Below, one piece after another: positions 20,593-42,876 of a DNA stretch of 64,000 bases. Every line of letters begins with the position of its first letter. Position 1 is the first letter of the stretch. The notes beneath the pieces were generated by a model. The model was not told the DNA's origin. It was given only the letters and a program-made list of their open reading frames with translations, and made no database searches. Source of the stretch: Gemmatimonadaceae bacterium (GTDB taxonomy: Bacteria; Gemmatimonadota; Gemmatimonadetes; Gemmatimonadales; Gemmatimonadaceae); NCBI GenBank assembly GCA_025930755.1, contig JAICOJ010000003.1, positions 1 to 64,000 on the forward strand, given 5' to 3'. The position numbers and the translations under genes are program-made.

Positions 20593-20953
20593 GTGCCGAG
20601 GGATCCCCGAGATGTTCGGCCGACCGAATCTCACCGGTGTTCAGGGTGCCGTGCGCTCGATAGGCGCGGAGCGCCAGCGCGGAGAGCACCACCGTCAGCG
20701 CAAACCCGATGACGATGGCGGTGAGGATCAATGCCTGAGGGAGTGGATCCGCTGACTCTCGCAGAGTGTCAGTCCCCTCCGCGATCAGCGGCGGCCGAAC
20801 CGACCGGAGGTGTCCGGCCAGGAACAGCATGATGTTCACCGCGGTCGCCAGGAGCGACAAGCCGAGGAGGAGGCGCACGAGGTTGCGTGAGAGCATCATG
20901 TAGAGCGCGCAGCCGAACAGGCTCGCTGCGAGCAAGGCGTAGAGAGCGTTCAT
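20570..20953 (-). CDS. mrpC: Mrp antiporter subunit C
   Basis: 127 aa, three transmembrane helices, homologous to NuoK. GCALYMMLSRNLVRLLLGLS and ATAVNIMLFL, then DPLPQALILTAIVIGFALTV are the family signatures, including the conserved Pro-Gln-Ala-Leu-Ile-Leu-Thr-Ala-Ile-Val-Ile motif. The last 25 residues are a charged cytoplasmic tail. The start overlaps the end of mrpAB by ATGA. Confidence 0.94.
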   Translation of the reverse strand: MNALYALLAASLFGCALYMMLSRNLVRLLLGLSLLATAVNIMLFLAGHLRSVRPPLIAEGTDTLRESADPLPQALILTAIVIGFALTVVLSALALRAYRAHGTLNTGEIRSAEHLGDPSAHEAGGDR

Positions 20954-23703
20954 CGAGCCGCCTCGCGCCGCAGGCCGAACAAAAACGCGAGCACCGTACC
21001 CAGCACCACGAGATAGACACCGAGATCGAACGGGAGTGTCGTTCCTTGCTTGATCGGGATGCCGAAGACGTCGATCTCGAGCCAGAGGTGACGGAGGAAA
21101 TCGCCGTGGAGGATGAGCCCCGGAAGGCCGCTGGCGATGGCGAGGAAGAGGCCGCCACCAGCCAGGGAGATCGGGTGGACCCGGAGCATCGCCCGGGCTC
21201 GATCAGTGCCGTCCGCGAGTGAGATCAGCGCAAACCCGAGTGCCGCGGTGAGCCCCCCGACGAAACCACCCCCGATCTGATTATGGCCGCGGAGGAGAAT
21301 GAGCACCGACAGAACGGTGAGGAGCCAGAAGAAGAGCCGGCTCGTCATCGAGAGAATGAAGATCGTGCGTCCGCGTGCGACTGCTGCGCCGCCCGCACCT
21401 GACGTTCTCGGGCCGAGCAGCGACCAGGCGAGGATGGCGGACAGCGCGATGACGGTCGTCTCACCGAGCGTGTCGAACCCTCGAAAATCGACGAGGATGA
21501 CGTTGACGACGTTGCGCCCGAACGCGGAGACGTAGCTGTGCGCGGCGAAGAAGTCGGAGATGAGCGTTGCTCGAGACGTCGTGCTCATGTCCACCAGGAC
21601 GCCGAATACGACCAGCGAGAAGGCAGCGGCGAGACTTGCGTCGAGAGTGCGCTCTCGACGCGTCCGCGTCGATGGCGCATCGAGGGGCAGCACGAGCAGC
21701 ACGAGCGTCAAGAGCACCACGATCAGCGACTCGACCGCGAACTGCGTGAGCGCCAGATCGGGCGCCCCGTTCATCATGAAGGTCAGCGCGGCGACGAACC
21801 CCGTCAGGCCGACGGCGACCATCGTCGACACCAGGGTCCTCGCCCGCACCGCGGCGAATGCTCCGCCGATTCCGATGAGGGCGACCGCCGCCGGGCCGAT
21901 TCGCCAACCGGGGAGCGTGTCGGGCAAACGCGGCCAACGCCCCGTGGCGACGTGGCCCCAAATGACGAACGCCATACCCGACGCCAGCACGACCCACAGA
22001 TACTTGCGAAGATCGCCGTGCTGGACCCACCGGGCGGTGGCGGCGGCCAGTCGCCCGCCACGACGGGTGATGGCCTCGAAAGCATGCTCCGTGTCGTAGC
22101 GGTCGATCAGCGTCCGCGAACGGAGGTGCGCGTGGATCGGCCCCCAGAACCTGAGGATCAGCGCTCCGATTCCGACGACGACCGCACTCAGCGCGAGAGT
22201 CTGCGTCACGCCATGTCGCAACGATGGCAGCTCGAGGGCGACGTCCGCGCCGTACACGGCCGCTACCGCGGGTCGCATCACCGCCGCGGTAATCCAATCA
22301 GGTTCGAGGCTCAGCAGGAGGCCAAGAAGCGACAGGACGACGGGACCGACCAGCAGCGCCGGCGTCTCGCCGTGTTTCACGTGCTTCACTTTCCCCCGGC
22401 CGAGAAAGAAGGGGCGCAGCGTCACAACGCCGGCCACCGCCACCAGGACCGCGTTGACCAGCACGGCCACCGCCATGGGGACTGCGTTCCAGGAGCTCTG
22501 GATTTGAGCTTCGAACAGAAACTCCTTGGAGATGAACCCGACAAACGGCGGAAGTCCGGCCATCGAGAGGCTGGCGAGGGCGGCCGCTACCGCGGTCACG
22601 GGAAGGAAGCGCACCAAGCCACCCATCGCGCGCAGCTTGCTGAGCCCTGTGGCGTGCAGGACTGATCCCGCGCAGAAAAACAGTGTCGCCTTGTAGAGCG
22701 CATGCGCGAGGACGAAGCCGACCATGGCGACGGTCGCGATGGGCCCATCGAGACCAACGAGCATAACGAGGATGCCCAGCGACGCGACGGTCGAATACGC
22801 GAGGACCGTCTTGAAGTTCTCCGCGCGCAACGCCTGGAAGGCCGCGATGAGCATCGTCGCAAGGGCGAACGCGATCAGGGTATCGCGCCCTCGAGGCGCG
22901 GCGCCGATGACGGGCTCGAACCGCGCCAGGAGATAGATGCCGAGCTTCACCATGGTCGCCGAATGGAGATAGGCGGACGCCGGCGTCGGCGCCTGCATGG
23001 CGTTCGGGAGCCAGAAGTGGAAGGGAAACTGCGCGGACTTCGTGAAGGCGGCGATCAGGACGCCGATCAGGATCGGCACGATCCACGGGCTCTGTGCCAG
23101 CTCGTACGCCCGCGCCGTGACGTCGGTAAGCAGATAGCTTCCGAGCGACATGCCGACGAGGATGATGGCGGCGAGGAGCGCAAGGCCTCCGCCGGCCGTG
23201 ACGCGCAGGGCCATGAGCGCGGCGCGCCGCGGGTGCGGGCTGTCGGCATGGAAGCCGATGAGCAGGAACGACAGAATGCTCGTCGCTTCCCAGAAGAGAA
23301 ACAGGACGAGCAGGTTGTCGGAGAGGACGGCGCCGAGCATCGCCGTCATGAACAACAGGATCAGCGTGAAGAATCGCGCGCGGCTGGGTGCGCTCTCGTT
23401 GGAGAGGTAGTCGCCGGCGTAGACGACGACGAGCGCGCCGATGCCGGTAATGAGCAGGGCGAAGAGAAAAGAGAACCCGTCGAGACGAAGGGTGAGATCG
23501 ACTCCCAGGGAGGGGGCCCAGGTCATCCGCCACTCGACCGCGCGCCCAGCGGCGATCGTGGGAACGAAATCCAGGAAGGCGACGAACAGGGAGGCGGGGA
23601 CGAGGGCGAGCAGCCAGCCGGACGCTCGTCGCCCGAACAGGAACGACAGTGGCCAGGCGGCGCAGCTTCCCAGGAAGGCGAATCCGAGAAGCCAGGCGAT
23701 CAT
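20950..23703 (-). CDS. mrpA: Mrp antiporter subunit A fused to subunit B
   Basis: 917 aa, three parts. Residues about 1-480 are a NuoL-like antiporter module: LFLFWEATSILSFLLIGFHA carries the key TM5 Glu, FWLPNAMQAPTPASAYLHSA the TM7 region, and SMAGLPPFVGFISKEFLFEA the TM12 Lys/Glu. Residues about 590-700 are the MbhD-like region (MNGAPDLALTQFAVESLIVV). Residues about 770-917 are a complete MrpB/MnhB domain (GGGFVGGLTAALGFALISLA, then GTTLPFDLGVYLVVLGTV). The A-B fusion gives a six-gene operon, as in the group of Mrp systems known from several Gram-negatives. It is the first gene; no clear promoter was found upstream. Confidence 0.94.
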   Translation of the reverse strand: MIAWLLGFAFLGSCAAWPLSFLFGRRASGWLLALVPASLFVAFLDFVPTIAAGRAVEWRMTWAPSLGVDLTLRLDGFSFLFALLITGIGALVVVYAGDYLSNESAPSRARFFTLILLFMTAMLGAVLSDNLLVLFLFWEATSILSFLLIGFHADSPHPRRAALMALRVTAGGGLALLAAIILVGMSLGSYLLTDVTARAYELAQSPWIVPILIGVLIAAFTKSAQFPFHFWLPNAMQAPTPASAYLHSATMVKLGIYLLARFEPVIGAAPRGRDTLIAFALATMLIAAFQALRAENFKTVLAYSTVASLGILVMLVGLDGPIATVAMVGFVLAHALYKATLFFCAGSVLHATGLSKLRAMGGLVRFLPVTAVAAALASLSMAGLPPFVGFISKEFLFEAQIQSSWNAVPMAVAVLVNAVLVAVAGVVTLRPFFLGRGKVKHVKHGETPALLVGPVVLSLLGLLLSLEPDWITAAVMRPAVAAVYGADVALELPSLRHGVTQTLALSAVVVGIGALILRFWGPIHAHLRSRTLIDRYDTEHAFEAITRRGGRLAAATARWVQHGDLRKYLWVVLASGMAFVIWGHVATGRWPRLPDTLPGWRIGPAAVALIGIGGAFAAVRARTLVSTMVAVGLTGFVAALTFMMNGAPDLALTQFAVESLIVVLLTLVLLVLPLDAPSTRTRRERTLDASLAAAFSLVVFGVLVDMSTTSRATLISDFFAAHSYVSAFGRNVVNVILVDFRGFDTLGETTVIALSAILAWSLLGPRTSGAGGAAVARGRTIFILSMTSRLFFWLLTVLSVLILLRGHNQIGGGFVGGLTAALGFALISLADGTDRARAMLRVHPISLAGGGLFLAIASGLPGLILHGDFLRHLWLEIDVFGIPIKQGTTLPFDLGVYLVVLGTVLAFLFGLRREAAR

Positions 23704-27331: not shown

Positions 27332-27391
27332 GGAGTGAAGGCGAACTTCCGATTGGCTCGCGACACCGGTCTTCGCGCGAGGAGTAGCGCA

Positions 27392-30300
27392 ATGACAGCC
27401 ACGCGACGGGAATTCCTCCGCTATGCCACGGGCGCCGGCGTCGGGACCGCTCTGGGCGGCCTCGCCGGTCTCGGCCTCACCCTCGCCCCCGCGCGGGCCA
27501 AAGCGCAGGCGCTGCGCATCAAGGACAGCAAGACGGTCCCCAGCATCTGCCCATTCTGCTCGGTGGGCTGCGCGACGCTGATCCACGTAAAGGACGGCGA
27601 GATCATCAACATCGAGGGTGATCCCCGCAGCCCTCATAACGAGGGAACGCTGTGTCCCAAGGGCGCCGCGATCTATCAGCTGCACAGGAATCCCAACCGC
27701 CCTACCAAGGTCCTGCACCGCAAGCCTGGCGCGAGGGACTGGGAAGTCGTCGAGCTCGGCTGGGCGATGGACCGCGTGGCGGAGCTGATCAAGAAGACAC
27801 GCGACGAGACGTTCGTCGAGCGGATGCCGGACGGCAAGCTCGTGAACATGACGACGTCCATCTTCGCCCTGGGCGGTGCGACGCTCGACAACGAGTTCAA
27901 TCACGTCGCCCAGAAGTTCTGTCGCGGCCTGGGCATCGTCGCGATCGAAAATCAGGCGCGAATATGACACAGCTCTAGCGTCCCCGGTCTGGGGTCACGG
28001 CTAGGTCGAGGCGCGGCGACGGTGTATCCGCGCAATCTGGAGCACAGTGATTGTTTCGTGATCATGGGCTCCAACATGGCCGAGTGCCATCCGGTCGCGT
28101 TCCGGTGGCCGATGAAGGCCAAGATGAACGGCGCAAAGCTGATTCACGTCGATCCGCGGTTCACGCGTACGAGCGCGAACTGCGACATTCACGCGCCCAT
28201 CCGCGCCGGGTCCGACATCGCGTTCCTCGGCGGGCTAATCAATTACGTCATCAACAGCGAGCGCTGGAACACGGACCCCTTCTTCAGGGAGTACGTGGTC
28301 AGCTACACCAACGCCGCCACGATCGTCAGCGACGATTTCAAGGATACGGAGGATCTCGAAGGGGTGTTCTCGGGATTGGTGCAATACACCGAAAAACCCG
28401 AGTGGCCGTACAACGCGTTCGTCGGCTCGTATCAGCCCGCGTCGTGGCAGTACAAATCGCCTTCCGTCCAAGGGCAAGGCGAACAGGTTGCGCCGACGGC
28501 TCGGTCCGGAGAGCAGAAGGCCGCACAGGGACCGCAGGCGGGGCAGCCAGCCGGTGGACCAACGGGCCCTCAGCCACCGGCCCCGCTTTCCTGGGATGAC
28601 GTCGTCCGCTCGCTGAAGAGGCCGCCGCCGCAGCGCGATCCAACGCTCCAGAACCCGCGCTGCGCCTTCCAGATCACGAAAAGGCACTTCGCACGCTACA
28701 CGCCTGAGGTCGTCGAGCAAATCACCGGATGCCCGCAGGCGAAGTTCCTCCAGGTCGCCGAGACCTTGCTCCAGAATTCGGGAGCCGACCGGACGTCCGC
28801 GTTCGCCTACGCGGTGGCATGGACGCAGCACACGTACGGCGTGCAGATGATCAGCTGCTGCGCGCTCCTGCAGCTGCTGTTAGGCAACATGGGCCGTCCC
28901 GGTGGCGGCATCATGGCGCTTCGCGGCCACGCCGCGATTCAGGGCTCCACCGACGTGCCGACGCTGTATCACAGCATCCATGGGTACATGAGCCACCCGA
29001 CGGTGCTGAAGAAGCACGACACGCTGCGCGACTTCATCACGACCGAGACGCCATCGGGCGGTTACTACGCCAACCTGCCCAAGTTCATGGTGTCGTACCT
29101 CAAGTCGTTCTACGGCGCCGCCGCCACTCGGGAGAACAACTGGGGCTACGACTGGCATCCCAAGATCATCGGCGACCATTCGCACATGGCGATGATGGCC
29201 GCGATGGAGGAAGGCAAGGTCAAGGGGATGATCTGCGTCGGACAGAATCCGGCGACGTCCCTCAACGGGTCATCGCAGCGAGCGGCCATGCGCAAGCTCG
29301 AGTGGATGGTCGTGAAGGACAACTGGATGACCGAGACCGCTACGCAGTGGTATTCGGCGCCGGAGATCAAGAACGGCGACGTGAAGGTCGCGGACATCAA
29401 CACCGAGGTCTTCTTCTTCCCGTCGACGCAGATCGCGGAGTACGACGGCAGCTTCACCAACACGCAGCGGATGCTGCAGTGGCATTTCAAGGCCGCCGAC
29501 GCGCCAGGCGACTGCAAGACCGACACGTGGTTCTACTATCACCTGGGCAAGCGGCTGAAGCGGGCATACGAAAACAGCTCGGCGGCGCGCGACCAGGGGT
29601 GGAAGAACACCGTCTGGGATTACGATCGCGAGCCCGCCGAGACCGCGGGTGAAATCTCCGACGAGCCTGACGAGCTCAAGATTCTGCGGGAGATCGCCGG
29701 ATTCCAGACCGCGGATCCCACCAAGCATCTCGCCGGGTTCGGCGAGCTCAAGGACGATGGCTCCACGACGTGCGCGTCGTGGATCTACTGCGGGTGTTAT
29801 CCGGCGCCCGGCCGCAATCTCACTGCGCGGCGCCAGCCGGATCCTCCGGGTGCACCGGGCGCGCATCTCAATTGGGGGTGGGCCTGGCCGGCGAATCGCC
29901 GCGTCATGTACAATCGTGCCTCGGCGGATCCGCAGGGCCGCCCGTGGAGCGAGCGCAAGCGCTGGGTCTGGTGGGACGGCTCGGCGGCGAACGCTCCGAA
30001 TGCGCAAACGGGCGCGCCGACACCCGCCGGGAAGTGGATCGGGTACGATGTGCCCGACTTCGCGTTGACCAAGGCGCCTAACGCGCAACCGAGGCCCGAC
30101 GGCATCGGCCTCGATGCGATGTCGGGGCTCGACGCATTCATCATGAAGCCCGACGGCAAGGGGTGGCTGTACGTGCCCTCCGGCCTCGTCGACGGCCCGC
30201 TGCCGACGCATTACGAGCCGGTCGAATCGCCCGTCCAGAACCTGCTCTATCCCAAGCAGCAGACGAGCCCCGTCTACAAGCACTGGGCGAAGGCGAAGAA

Positions 30301-30724
30301 CTACAATCAGGTCGCCAGGGTGGGCGATCCGGATTATCCGCACGTCATCACCACGTATCGTCTCACGGAGCACTACCTCGCTGGTGCGATGAGTCGCTGG
30401 CTGCCCTGGCTCTCCGAGCTCATGCCCGAGCTGTTCATCGAGATGGGACGTGCACTCGCCGACGAGAAGGGCATTCGCAACCTCGACTGGGTGAAGATCA
30501 AGACCCCGCGCAGCGAGATCCGCGCGAAGGCGCTCGTCACCGATCGTATCGGTGTGATGAACATCGCGGGCAAGCGCGTGCACCACGTCGGCATGCCATG
30601 GCACTGGGGATGGGAGGGTCTGAGCACGGGCGATGTCGTGAACGATCTGACGTCCTGGGTGGGTGACCCCAACGTGTCGATCCACGAAGGCAAGGCGTTC
30701 CTCTGCAACGTGGAGAAGGACTGA
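27392..30724 (+). CDS. fdnG: formate dehydrogenase-N type alpha subunit, selenocysteine-containing
   Basis: One gene of 1110 codons read through an in-frame TGA at 27965-27967 (codon 192). A Tat signal (TRREFLRYA, residues 4-12) sends the folded enzyme across the membrane. Cys53, 56, 60 and 88 (CPFCSVGC ... CPKG) bind a [4Fe-4S] cluster. Around the TGA the frame reads VAIENQARI-Sec-HSSS, matching the Sec-His active site of E. coli FdnG (VAIDNQARV-U-H). Downstream GSNMAECHPVAFRW, VDPRFTRTSA, GNMGRPGGG and ICVGQNPATS are molybdopterin-binding motifs. It oxidises formate to CO2. A Pro/Gln-rich insert (about residues 365-410) makes it longer than FdnG (1015 aa). Confidence 0.95.
27976..28003 (+). 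promoter_or_regulatory. bacterial SECIS element
   Basis: Eighteen bases after the TGA, CCCC (27982-27985) and GGGG (27991-27994) form a stem around the loop GGTCT, the GGUCU-type loop that SelB recognises in E. coli formate dehydrogenase mRNAs. Outer pairs GT/AC and TAGC (27976-27979)/GCTA (28000-28003) extend the stem with a small bulge (TC at 27995-27996). The element lies entirely in coding sequence, as in other bacterial SECIS elements. Confidence 0.88.
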
Positions 30725-31539
30725 TGGCCGAAGCGATGGGGTTCTTCACCGACACGACCGTCTGCATCGGCTGCAAAGCCTGCGAGGTCGCGTGCAAGAG
30801 CTGGAACCAGCTCCCGGCGCGGGAAGGCGGCCAACCCGAGTTGAGCGGTATCAGCTACGACAACACGGTGCAGCTCAGCGGCACGACGTGGCGTCACGTC
30901 AAGTTCATCGAGCAGTTCGACGGGCCGTACAACGGCCGCTGGCTCATGATGAGCGACGTCTGCAAGCATTGCGTGCAAGCAGGGTGCATCGAGGTGTGCC
31001 CGACGGGCGCCATCATCCGCACCGAGTTCGATACCGTCGTCATCCAGTCCGACGTCTGCAACGGCTGCCGCGCGTGCATTGCCGGCTGCCCGTTCGGCGT
31101 CATCGACATGAACCCCGTGTCGGGTACGGCGCAGAAGTGCACGCTGTGCTACGACCGCATGAGCGTGGGGCTCGAGCCGGCGTGCTCGAAGGCGTGTCCC
31201 ACCGACTCGATTCAGTTCGGGCCGATCGACGATCTGCGACGGCGGGCGCAAACGCGGCTCGAGCAGCTGCAATCGCAGGGGGAGACGCGCGCGCAGCTCT
31301 ATGGCGCGGACCCGGAGGGGCCGGTCGGCGGACTGAATTCCTTCTATCTCCTGGTCGACGAGCCCGAGGTGTACGGTTTGCCCTCCCAACCGAAGCTGCC
31401 AAGCCGCAACCTCGCGTCGAGCGCCGCTGGGTCAGTCGTTGGAGCGGCCGTCCTCGGAGCAGTCGGCCTGGTCACGCTGCGCAAGCGCCGCTCGGAGGAC
31501 GTGGCCGAGTCGGAGCGTGGGGGGCAGCCGCGTGCCTGA
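30724..31539 (+). CDS. fdnH: formate dehydrogenase beta subunit, four [4Fe-4S] clusters
   Basis: 271 aa; the ATG overlaps the fdnG stop (TGATG). Cysteine groups CIGCKACEVACKSW, CKHCVQAGCIEVCP, CNGCRACIAGCPFG and CTLCYDR...CSKACP arrange four [4Fe-4S] clusters, as in FdnH, and carry electrons from the alpha subunit toward the membrane. Near the C-terminus a hydrophobic helix (SAAGSVVGAAVLGAVGLVTL) followed by RKRR is the membrane anchor, like the single TM helix of FdnH. It is exported with the alpha subunit by the Tat route. Confidence 0.95.
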   Translation: MAEAMGFFTDTTVCIGCKACEVACKSWNQLPAREGGQPELSGISYDNTVQLSGTTWRHVKFIEQFDGPYNGRWLMMSDVCKHCVQAGCIEVCPTGAIIRTEFDTVVIQSDVCNGCRACIAGCPFGVIDMNPVSGTAQKCTLCYDRMSVGLEPACSKACPTDSIQFGPIDDLRRRAQTRLEQLQSQGETRAQLYGADPEGPVGGLNSFYLLVDEPEVYGLPSQPKLPSRNLASSAAGSVVGAAVLGAVGLVTLRKRRSEDVAESERGGQPRA

Positions 31540-32452
31540 CACGTTCTTCACGACGCCGCCCGAATGGACGTGGTGGATCATCTTCTACTTCTTCATCGGC
31601 GGCATCGCCGGGGGAAGCTTCTTCATTGCGTCGCTGCTGTACCTGTTCGGCCGCCCGAGCGACCGACCCGTCGTCAGGCTCGGCTACTACGTCGCATTCG
31701 TCGGCGTGGTCATCAGCGGCATCCTGCTGATTCTCGACCTGCACCGGCCGCTCCGCTTCTGGCACATGCTCATCGAGTCCAATACCGGAAACCTCATGTT
31801 CAAGTCGTGGACGCCGATGTCCATCGGCTCATGGGGACTCCTGCTGTTCGGACTCTTCGCGGCGCTGGCGGCGCTCAGCGCCGCGCGGGAAGAAGAGCGT
31901 GTGCGGTGGGGACCGGGGTTTGTGGTCGGACGTGGATTTCGTACCGTCGTCGCGATCATCGGCGGCATCCTTGGATTCTTCCTCGCCGGCTATACCGGCG
32001 TGCTGCTCAGTGTCTCCAACCGGCCGGTGTGGGCGGACTCGCCCATGTTAGGCGCGCTGTTTCTCATTTCGGCTGCCTCGACGGCTGCTGCCACCTTGAT
32101 CCTGCTCGGTCGGCGTCGTGACGCCGTCGATGCTGCCTCACTGGGTAAGCTCGCGGAATTCGACAAGTGGGCCTTGATTCTCGAGCTCGTCGCCATCGTC
32201 GTGTTCCTCGTCACGCTCGGTGCCGCGGTGCAGGTGTTCCTCAGTGTGTGGGGCGTGCTGCTGGTCCTCGGCGTGATCGGCGCTGGCATCCTGCTTCCAC
32301 TCGCGATCGGCATGGGATGGGTGAAGCGGTGGTCGACGAAACCGGCGACGGCGGCCGTACTCGTCCTCGTAGGCGGCTTTCTGCTTCGCGTCGTCACGCT
32401 TCTTTCATCGGAGCAGGTCCACATCGCGGGGCACCGGGTCATTTCGCCGTGA
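31532..32452 (+). CDS. nrfD: NrfD/PsrC-type membrane subunit
   Basis: 306 aa from the GTG at 31532 (8-bp overlap with fdnH). Eight or nine hydrophobic helices. PPEWTWWIIFYFFIGGIAGG and DLHRPLRFWHML, then MFKSWTPMSIGSWGLLLFG are the NrfD/PsrC hallmarks. This haem-free quinone-interacting subunit replaces the cytochrome b556 FdnI of the E. coli enzyme, so formate electrons should enter the menaquinone/ubiquinone pool without haem b. It ends with a GTGA overlap with the next gene. Confidence 0.9.
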   Translation: MPDTFFTTPPEWTWWIIFYFFIGGIAGGSFFIASLLYLFGRPSDRPVVRLGYYVAFVGVVISGILLILDLHRPLRFWHMLIESNTGNLMFKSWTPMSIGSWGLLLFGLFAALAALSAAREEERVRWGPGFVVGRGFRTVVAIIGGILGFFLAGYTGVLLSVSNRPVWADSPMLGALFLISAASTAAATLILLGRRRDAVDAASLGKLAEFDKWALILELVAIVVFLVTLGAAVQVFLSVWGVLLVLGVIGAGILLPLAIGMGWVKRWSTKPATAAVLVLVGGFLLRVVTLLSSEQVHIAGHRVISP

Positions 32453-32721
32453 CCACGCGATCGTCGAGCATTGCCGCGGCCCTCGCGCTCGCCGGCGTAA
32501 TGGTCCTGGCATCGTGCGACAGTCCGGAGGCTGATCGCGTGCGCGGTGGTGGCGAGCGAGGCGCGGACGTGGGGAATCGCAACCCCGTCATTGAAACGCA
32601 CGCCGGATCGAAGATGTACTACGATACCCCATGCCTCATGCCTGACGACGAATGCAGCGGACCACCAGCGGTATCGGGACTCCCGGGGGACTTTCCGGAC
32701 ACGAGGCGCAGGGGCACCTAG
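32449..32721 (+). CDS. small lipoprotein in the formate dehydrogenase operon
   Basis: 90 aa from the GTG at 32449. The signal sequence ends VLASC (lipobox), leaving a short hydrophilic mature chain with two further cysteines (DTPCLMPDDEC). No family recognised. It overlaps both the NrfD gene (4 bp) and fdhE (70 bp), so it is embedded in the operon. It may be an accessory of the periplasmic complex, but nothing in the sequence says how. Confidence 0.65.
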   Translation: MTTRSSSIAAALALAGVMVLASCDSPEADRVRGGGERGADVGNRNPVIETHAGSKMYYDTPCLMPDDECSGPPAVSGLPGDFPDTRRRGT

Positions 32722-33575
32722 ACCAGGCCTGGCGGCCGTGGGTCAAGCTGCTCGATGTAGCGCTCCAGGCGGCCGAGAGCTCCGCCTGGGCATCGGCCGT
32801 CCCGGAGCTGCCGGTGCGGAGCGACGCCGCGTGGCCGCCCTACGCGCCGTTGCTCGAGGGGGCATCGATCCGCATCGATGGGCGTCGTACGCGCAAGCTC
32901 GTGCGCGAGCTCATCCATACGGCCGATGATGCACGCGACGCGGGCGCACAATGGTCCACGGCGATGCGCGGCCGCCGGCTGGATGCCGTTGGGCTGCTTC
33001 ACGCCGCCATCATCCGCGATCATGACGCCGTGGAACGGATCGCTGCCCGAGCGGGCATCGATGCGTCGGCGCTCGCGGTCGTCGCGCAGCTCGCGGTGAT
33101 GCCGCTGCTGCACGCCTGCGCCGACCGGTGGCGAGAGCACGTTTCGTCGGCGTGGACGCATGGGTATTGCCCGGTGTGCGCGGCCTGGCCGGCGCTGGCG
33201 GAGCTGCGCGGTCTCGAGCGCAGCCGCCGGCTGCGGTGCGGTCGGTGCGCCACCGATTGGCCGCTGCCCGTGCTTCAGTGTGCCTACTGCGGCGAAGACG
33301 ATCACGATCGTCTCGGAACGTTGACACCCGAGGGCGAGTCGCAGACGCGACGCGTCGAGGTATGCTACACCTGCAAGGGATATCTCAAGACCTTCACCAC
33401 GCTGCGGCCGATGGTACTGCGCACGATCGCGATGACCGACCTCGCGAGTGTCGATCTCGACCTGATCGCGCAGGAACGGCAGTACGCACGGCCGTCCCAG
33501 TTCGCGCACCGCCTCACGCTCACGGTATCACGTGCCGGAGCGCGAGCGGGCGAGCTCCGGACGCCGGCACCCTAA
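32652..33575 (+). CDS. fdhE: formate dehydrogenase accessory protein FdhE
   Basis: 307 aa. Four CxxC pairs in the C-terminal half (CPVC, CGRC, CAYC, CYTC) form the rubredoxin-like iron-binding sites of FdhE, followed by GYLKTFTTLRP and TDLASVDLDLIAQERQY, which are family signatures. FdhE is a cytoplasmic factor needed for active respiratory formate dehydrogenase and interacts with the catalytic subunit before Tat export. The start may be later, since the first 70 bp overlap the lipoprotein gene. FdhD is not in the window. Confidence 0.92.
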   Translation: MQRTTSGIGTPGGLSGHEAQGHLDQAWRPWVKLLDVALQAAESSAWASAVPELPVRSDAAWPPYAPLLEGASIRIDGRRTRKLVRELIHTADDARDAGAQWSTAMRGRRLDAVGLLHAAIIRDHDAVERIAARAGIDASALAVVAQLAVMPLLHACADRWREHVSSAWTHGYCPVCAAWPALAELRGLERSRRLRCGRCATDWPLPVLQCAYCGEDDHDRLGTLTPEGESQTRRVEVCYTCKGYLKTFTTLRPMVLRTIAMTDLASVDLDLIAQERQYARPSQFAHRLTLTVSRAGARAGELRTPAP

Positions 33576-33931: not shown

Positions 33932-34218
33932 GGCGCTCACGAATTGCTTCCCGCGCGTTCATCGCGGTGCTGGTGCTGGCCGCGTGCGGGGATGACGACG
34001 AGGCCGGAATACGCGAGGGACCAGCGAGTGGTATGCTTGCCGACTCGGCAGTGCTCGCGGAGATGCGGGATACGGTGACAGTCAACCGGATCATTTACGA
34101 CCCAGCGCCCGATCTGTCGCTTTCATCGGCTCAGCAGCGGCGTCCGGAGATCTTCAGGCCGCCAGCGGCGGTCGCTCCTGCTCCCCGCGCGCAATCTCGG
34201 GATACGAGTAGGAGCTAG
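33928..34218 (+). CDS. small lipoprotein, C-terminus set by a repeat element
   Basis: 96 aa. The signal sequence ends VLAAC (lipobox). The mature chain is hydrophilic and ends in a Pro/Ala-rich stretch. Its last codons AGT-AGG-AGC-TAG (Ser-Arg-Ser-stop) already belong to the left arm of palindrome B. No family is recognised. It is the last gene of the formate dehydrogenase operon by overlap. Confidence 0.6.
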   Translation: MRRSRIASRAFIAVLVLAACGDDDEAGIREGPASGMLADSAVLAEMRDTVTVNRIIYDPAPDLSLSSAQQRRPEIFRPPAAVAPAPRAQSRDTSRS

Positions 34219-34330
34219 GGGTCAGGGGTCAGGGGTCAGGGGTGGAAAGGCGGCGCGGCCTCATCAGATGAGCGCGGCAGCTTCGCTGCCGCGCCTTTCC
34301 ATCCCTGACCCCTGACCCCTAGCTCCTGCT
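34209..34330. repeat. heptad-arm palindrome B, core type I
   Basis: It lies between convergent genes. The left arm AGGAGCT followed by AGGGGTC repeated about four times (34210-34243) is matched by the inverted GACCCCT repeats and AGCTCCT of the right arm (34303-34327). The core holds two further hairpins: CTCATC-GATGAG (34260-34272) and GCGCGGCAGC...GCTGCCGCGC (34272-34294). The same core, reversed, occurs in palindrome F. Both flanking genes take their TAG stop from the arms. Confidence 0.85.
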
Positions 34331-42746: not shown

Positions 42747-42876
42747 AGGAATTAGGGGTCAGGGGTCAGGGATCAGGGGGTGTCAGGGAATAGGTTTGAG
42801 GAGAGGTGCGTGCCGTTCTCTCCTACAACCCACCGCCTAACACCCCCTGATCCCTGACCCCTGACCCTAATTCCTC
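42747..42876. repeat. heptad-arm palindrome C, core type II
   Basis: Between convergent genes. AATTAGGGGTCAGGGGTC on the left and GACCCCTGACCCTAATTCC on the right form arms of 7-bp units. The core (about 42776-42840) contains GGAGAGG and CCGTTCTCTCC and is closely similar, when reversed, to the core of palindrome D: both share GGAGAGAACGGCA and end in CACCCCCTGATCCCTG. The stop codons of both neighbouring genes lie at the element edges. Confidence 0.82.

Follow-up and report, generated by a model that had tools for sequence, protein, structure and literature searches.

A predicted FdnG-family selenocysteine formate dehydrogenase in a Gemmatimonadaceae genome, and selenocysteine use across Gemmatimonadota

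We describe a gene in a 64,000-nucleotide stretch of genomic DNA (the window) that almost certainly encodes an FdnG-family formate dehydrogenase that contains selenocysteine (Sec), is exported through Tat, is decoded through SelB and a SECIS hairpin, and reduces quinone by way of an NrfD-like subunit in the FqoABC layout, in a Gemmatimonadaceae-like host. At the level of sequence, the recoded frame, the covariation of the SECIS hairpin, the full Sec machinery and the operon are demonstrated; we infer that Sec is inserted in vivo, that formate is the substrate and that electrons flow to quinone.

Results

The fdnG frame has a TGA as its sole interruption, read here as residue 192 (Table 1), with ...VAIENQARI before it and HSSSVPGLG after it, in sequence that is conserved on both sides. 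In a phmmer search against the PDB, the match to E. coli FdnG (1kqf) spans both halves of the frame (E = 1e-221) and aligns residue 192 with the X (Sec) of that structure, counting as residue 196, which bears out the placement of the TGA by an earlier sequence-only reading. Under the standard code the gene is read as two ORFs, one of 210 aa (27335-27967) and one of 900 aa (28022-30724), the split into truncated genes which that reading had anticipated. The protein scores 984.1 bits against TIGR01553 (formate dehydrogenase-N alpha), for which the curated NCBIfam cut-off is 814.2, and contains Pfam 4Fe-4S, molybdopterin and dinucleotide-binding domains. Direct reading of its N-terminus reveals a Tat signal, TRREFLR followed by a hydrophobic stretch. 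Relative to 1kqf it carries an extra, unaligned segment at approximately residues 342-413.

Table 1. Features of the formate dehydrogenase locus in the window and of the selenocysteine machinery elsewhere in the same genome (contig:positions)
Feature	Position	Strand	Details
fdnG/fqoA, formate dehydrogenase-N type catalytic subunit	27392..30724	+	1110 aa with Sec192; TIGR01553, 1kqf
In-frame TGA, selenocysteine codon	27965..27967	+	E. coli FdnG Sec196 position
Bacterial SECIS core	27980..27996	+	stem CCCC 27982-27985, loop GGTCT 27986-27990, stem GGGG 27991-27994
fdnH/fqoB, iron-sulfur (ferredoxin-type) subunit	30724..31539	+	one C-terminal transmembrane helix
nrfD/fqoC-like, polytopic quinone-interacting membrane subunit	31532..32452	+	NrfD PF03916 1e-29
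fdhE, formate dehydrogenase maturation protein	32652..33575	+	divergent; below NCBIfam cut-off, above Pfam cut-off
selA	C57:22439-23758		553 bits, family search
selB	C1:17146-18981		325 bits, family search
selD	C13:12801-13721		383 bits; own in-frame TGA in CAG-U-AAK
tRNA-Sec	C13:12614-12706		73 bits; ARAGORN tRNA-SeC, anticodon tca (UCA)

In principle, a TGA at this codon could stem from an error of sequencing, or from a nonsense mutation that arose recently in a gene of the Cys type or in one that is decaying, and Cys versions of FdnG do exist, one of them in the same family (genome G033, see below). However, a genome of the same genus (91% identity) keeps the TGA, as do 34 of the 298 sampled Gemmatimonadota genomes, together with a covarying hairpin, and the Sec machinery is present. 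Moreover, the 919 codons downstream of the TGA are open and conserved; on base composition alone, the probability of their staying open by chance is approximately 1.5e-10. As the TGA is conserved among relatives, we rejected error and nonsense mutation, whose remaining probability we regard as negligible. A binning artefact was also rejected, since both the same-genus genome and the nearest Gemmatimonadaceae carry this TGA.

The predicted CCCC-GGTCT-GGGG hairpin is indeed present downstream of the TGA, its core flanked by a U27981/U27995 mismatch and a G27980-C27996 pair. The proposed spacing of 18 bases is correct for the GGU loop, while the stem itself begins 14 nt past the TGA. Loop and spacing are as in E. 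coli fdhF. The sequence CCCGGTCTGGG occurs once in the window, counting both strands. Beside the stem, the Ser codon TCA of the window gives a U-U where most relatives have ACA, so that the hairpin here is slightly weaker than is typical. The outer TAGC/GCTA stem that had been proposed exists in the window (27976-27979 / 28000-28003), but its pairing is not conserved: of the four pairs, three are formed in just 12-37 of 77 relatives, and the fourth, A-T in 61 of 77, sits at amino-acid-constrained positions. Stretches of 37-51 nt around the hairpin fold no better than shuffled sequences (z = +0.3 to -1.2), and the core hairpin alone folds modestly better (z = -1.9). Folding energy is thus weakly informative, and the evidence for the SECIS is covariation. 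Scanning the window against Rfam with the gathering thresholds gave no match, and hence no help on this point.

For covariation we compared the 36 nt after the Sec/Cys codon in every FdnG-like gene among the loci from the window's relatives, the phylum and the genome collection, giving 77 distinct Sec-codon and 12 Cys sequences. In all 77 Sec-codon sequences, the third bases of the Val codon and of the second Gly codon form a pair (40 C-G, 23 G-C, 11 U-A, 2 G-U and 1 U-G). At these sites, 74 Watson-Crick pairs were observed, against a mean of 30 and a maximum of 46 in 20,000 shuffles. The other two informative stem pairs form in 76/77 and 77/77 Sec rows. A loop T in the Gly/Ser codon (GGT/AGT) is present in 77/77 Sec rows and 1/12 Cys rows. 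Among the nine closest TGA relatives, eight have an identical CCCC-GGTCT-GGGG and the ninth is compensated (GCCC-GGTCT-GGGC). Because shuffling ignores relatedness, a tree-based test was added, using a FastTree phylogeny of 102 proteins, which also served for the Sec/Cys changes; the two stem sites changed jointly and in the same direction in nine independent row pairs, all on branches with good support (p = 0.004 by a sign test).

Conservation of the hairpin might instead reflect nothing but coding constraint on VPGLG, with no RNA signal, and many of the paired bases are indeed first or second codon positions of residues that are conserved. The pairs that vary, however, lie at synonymous third positions and covary in Sec genes only, whereas Cys genes of the same family break the informative pairs (5/12 paired at the Val/Gly site, 3/12 and 3/12 at the other two). 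We therefore consider purely coding constraint exceedingly unlikely and favour a SECIS. As a side observation, one otherwise typical TGA fdnG (L168, G134:C55) carries GTCGCCGGTCTGGGG, in which a G-G breaks one stem pair and Ala replaces Pro; this gene is perhaps on its way to SECIS loss.

A selenoprotein pathway, which the sequence-only reading took the TGA to imply, is found in the window's genome, whose assembly totals 4.27 Mb in 275 contigs, with completeness at 100% and contamination at 1.2%. The absence of selA, selB or selC had been named as grounds for discarding the reading; selA, selB, selD and the tRNA-Sec gene are all present, on three contigs of the assembly, none of them the window's own. 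The selD gene, itself a selenoprotein gene, adjoins that of tRNA-Sec. FdhD was not found in this assembly. Among 31 other Gemmatimonadota carriers of FdnG that were tested, a clear FdhD homologue is present in 29 and a partial one in G203, while G242 (88% complete) has none; the same-genus relative has FdhD too. Since nearly all related carriers encode FdhD, its absence here is most likely an assembly gap, and we set it aside as a novelty.

Among named relatives, the nearest is a Gemmatimonadaceae metagenome-assembled genome (MAG; 74% identity), in support of the proposed Gemmatimonadota-like host. That reading had further regarded respiratory formate oxidation as a trait not to be expected in such an organism, but the trait is nothing exceptional in the phylum: in 298 evenly drawn Gemmatimonadota genomes, selA exceeds the cut-off in 220 and selB in 218. 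A strong FdnG match was obtained in 39 of the 298, and in 34 of these the TGA was covered. All 34 TGA-FdnG genomes have selA or selB and 28 have both; the missing selA (G137, G219, G280) or selB (G036, G102, G228) in the remaining six most likely reflects assembly gaps. A second, shorter Sec formate dehydrogenase-like protein was also seen, in many Gemmatimonadota without FdnG. Its example at locus L059 (G020:C15:22000-27000, minus strand) is a 661-aa frame with the TGA in ...CNRT-U-HAPS... and no Tat signal seen; frames of this size with one TGA occur also in G002, G010, G022 and G030.

The Cys-type FdnG proteins (that of G033 and several from Actinomycetota) belong to the same family and share the flanking motif of the window's FdnG, but have TGC at the Sec codon and, unlike the window's gene, no SECIS hairpin. 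In G033, which is of the same family as the window's organism and 100% complete, the hairpin has decayed (broken pairs, loop GGACT), and neither selA nor selB was found in the genome. Its FdnG is nested in the Gemmatimonadota Sec clade, sister to a Gemmatimonadaceae Sec gene with a FastTree support of 100; Sec-to-Cys is therefore the simpler direction of change. The topology as a whole requires three Sec/Cys changes. When genomes of several phyla were tested for tRNA-Sec, it scored at least 65 bits in all 15 that have TGA or TAG here, versus 2/11 with TGC. The other Cys genomes gave 44-51 bits, about the range of tRNA-Ser in the window's genome, and two Cys genomes exceed the 47-bit tRNA-Sec cut-off on such tRNA-Ser-range matches. 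In Geodermatophilus sp. TF02-6 (L098) and Blastococcus sp. DSM 46786 (L100), the Sec codon of FdnG is TAG and the hairpin is intact; for the FdnG family, Sec at UAG together with a CUA tRNA-Sec is already known (PMC5330540).

The operon runs fdnG-fdnH-nrfD-fdhE, an order that recurs at L062 and L064 (a Gemmatimonadaceae and a Thermomicrobiaceae MAG). The third gene, which probably starts with the GTG at 31532 and overlaps the stop of fdnH, is NrfD-like and not the cytochrome b FdnI. A simple hydropathy scan of its product picked out seven hydrophobic stretches (the FqoC type has eight transmembrane helices), and a search of the product's sequence against the PDB found nothing. The window's enzyme thus shares with E. 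coli FdnGHI (1kqf) the Sec position, the Tat signal, FdnH and a UGA with an immediately downstream SECIS, but differs in its membrane subunit. With FqoABC it shares FdnG-FdnH homologues and an NrfD-like membrane subunit in one operon. FqoABC is described as uncharacterised and its assignment as a formate:quinone oxidoreductase as tentative, and the phyla listed for FqoC are Actinobacteria, Chlorobi, Crenarchaeota, Chloroflexi and Deltaproteobacteria, with Gemmatimonadota not among them (PMC8076601). Respiratory formate oxidation, as first proposed, would accordingly be of the predicted FqoABC type, without the E. coli type of membrane partner.

Elsewhere in the window, we noted a large antiporter-type gene at 20950-23703 (minus strand) that combines Proton_antipo_M, MbhD, MbhE and MnhB domains in one protein. 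Between two genes at 34207-34330 lies a large inverted repeat of GGGGTCA units (arms of 43 nt, 84% complementary, 25 nt apart), with a further copy of the motif at 42755; it is possibly a terminator or a mobile repeat.

Discussion

In the mechanism we propose, the UGA at codon 192 would be decoded by Sec-tRNA-Sec, delivered by SelB acting on the downstream SECIS hairpin, and the selenol of Sec would ligate a Mo/W-bis-MGD cofactor at the active site. Formate would be oxidised at the outer face of the membrane, its electrons travelling along the FeS clusters of first FdnG and then FdnH to the NrfD-like subunit and on to quinone, and FdhE may aid maturation. A Sec molybdoenzyme whose main role is not respiratory formate oxidation, such as a CO2 reductase or an enzyme using another donor, would be compatible with a membrane subunit unlike E. 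coli FdnI and with the tentative nature of the FqoABC assignment (PMC8076601). Nevertheless, the whole-length match to formate dehydrogenase-N families and 1kqf, the Tat signal on FdnG and the presence of FdhE in the operon make such a role improbable, and we retain respiratory formate oxidation as the preferred function.

This kind of enzyme is already well known, FdhA-type enzymes being among the most widespread bacterial selenoproteins (PMC9312934, PMC13188914); what is added here is the prevalence of Sec use in the phylum and a clean Sec-to-Cys case. Across bacteria overall, the reported share of Sec users is about 18-25% (PMC4561486, PMC9312934). In the open-access literature that we searched, comprising one library, we found no report of Sec use in Gemmatimonadota. 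Its frequency in the phylum seems a modest surprise, and its spread little noticed. We think it probable that Gemmatimonadota are predominantly Sec-using and that the trait outlives any single selenoprotein: FdnG would account for roughly one in nine genomes, and the remainder would be explained by SelD, by the second Sec formate dehydrogenase and by unlisted families. A clean switch from Sec to Cys would have happened at least once, in G033, whose genome is without selA and selB.

In conclusion, the reading of fdnG presented here mends a gene that standard annotation cuts in two, and assigns to a Gemmatimonadota lineage a respiratory type of formate oxidation that depends on selenium. The Cys switch of G033, with its hairpin lost and selA and selB absent, is a neat natural experiment, and in the Gemmatimonadota sampled, Sec use is the norm and not the exception.
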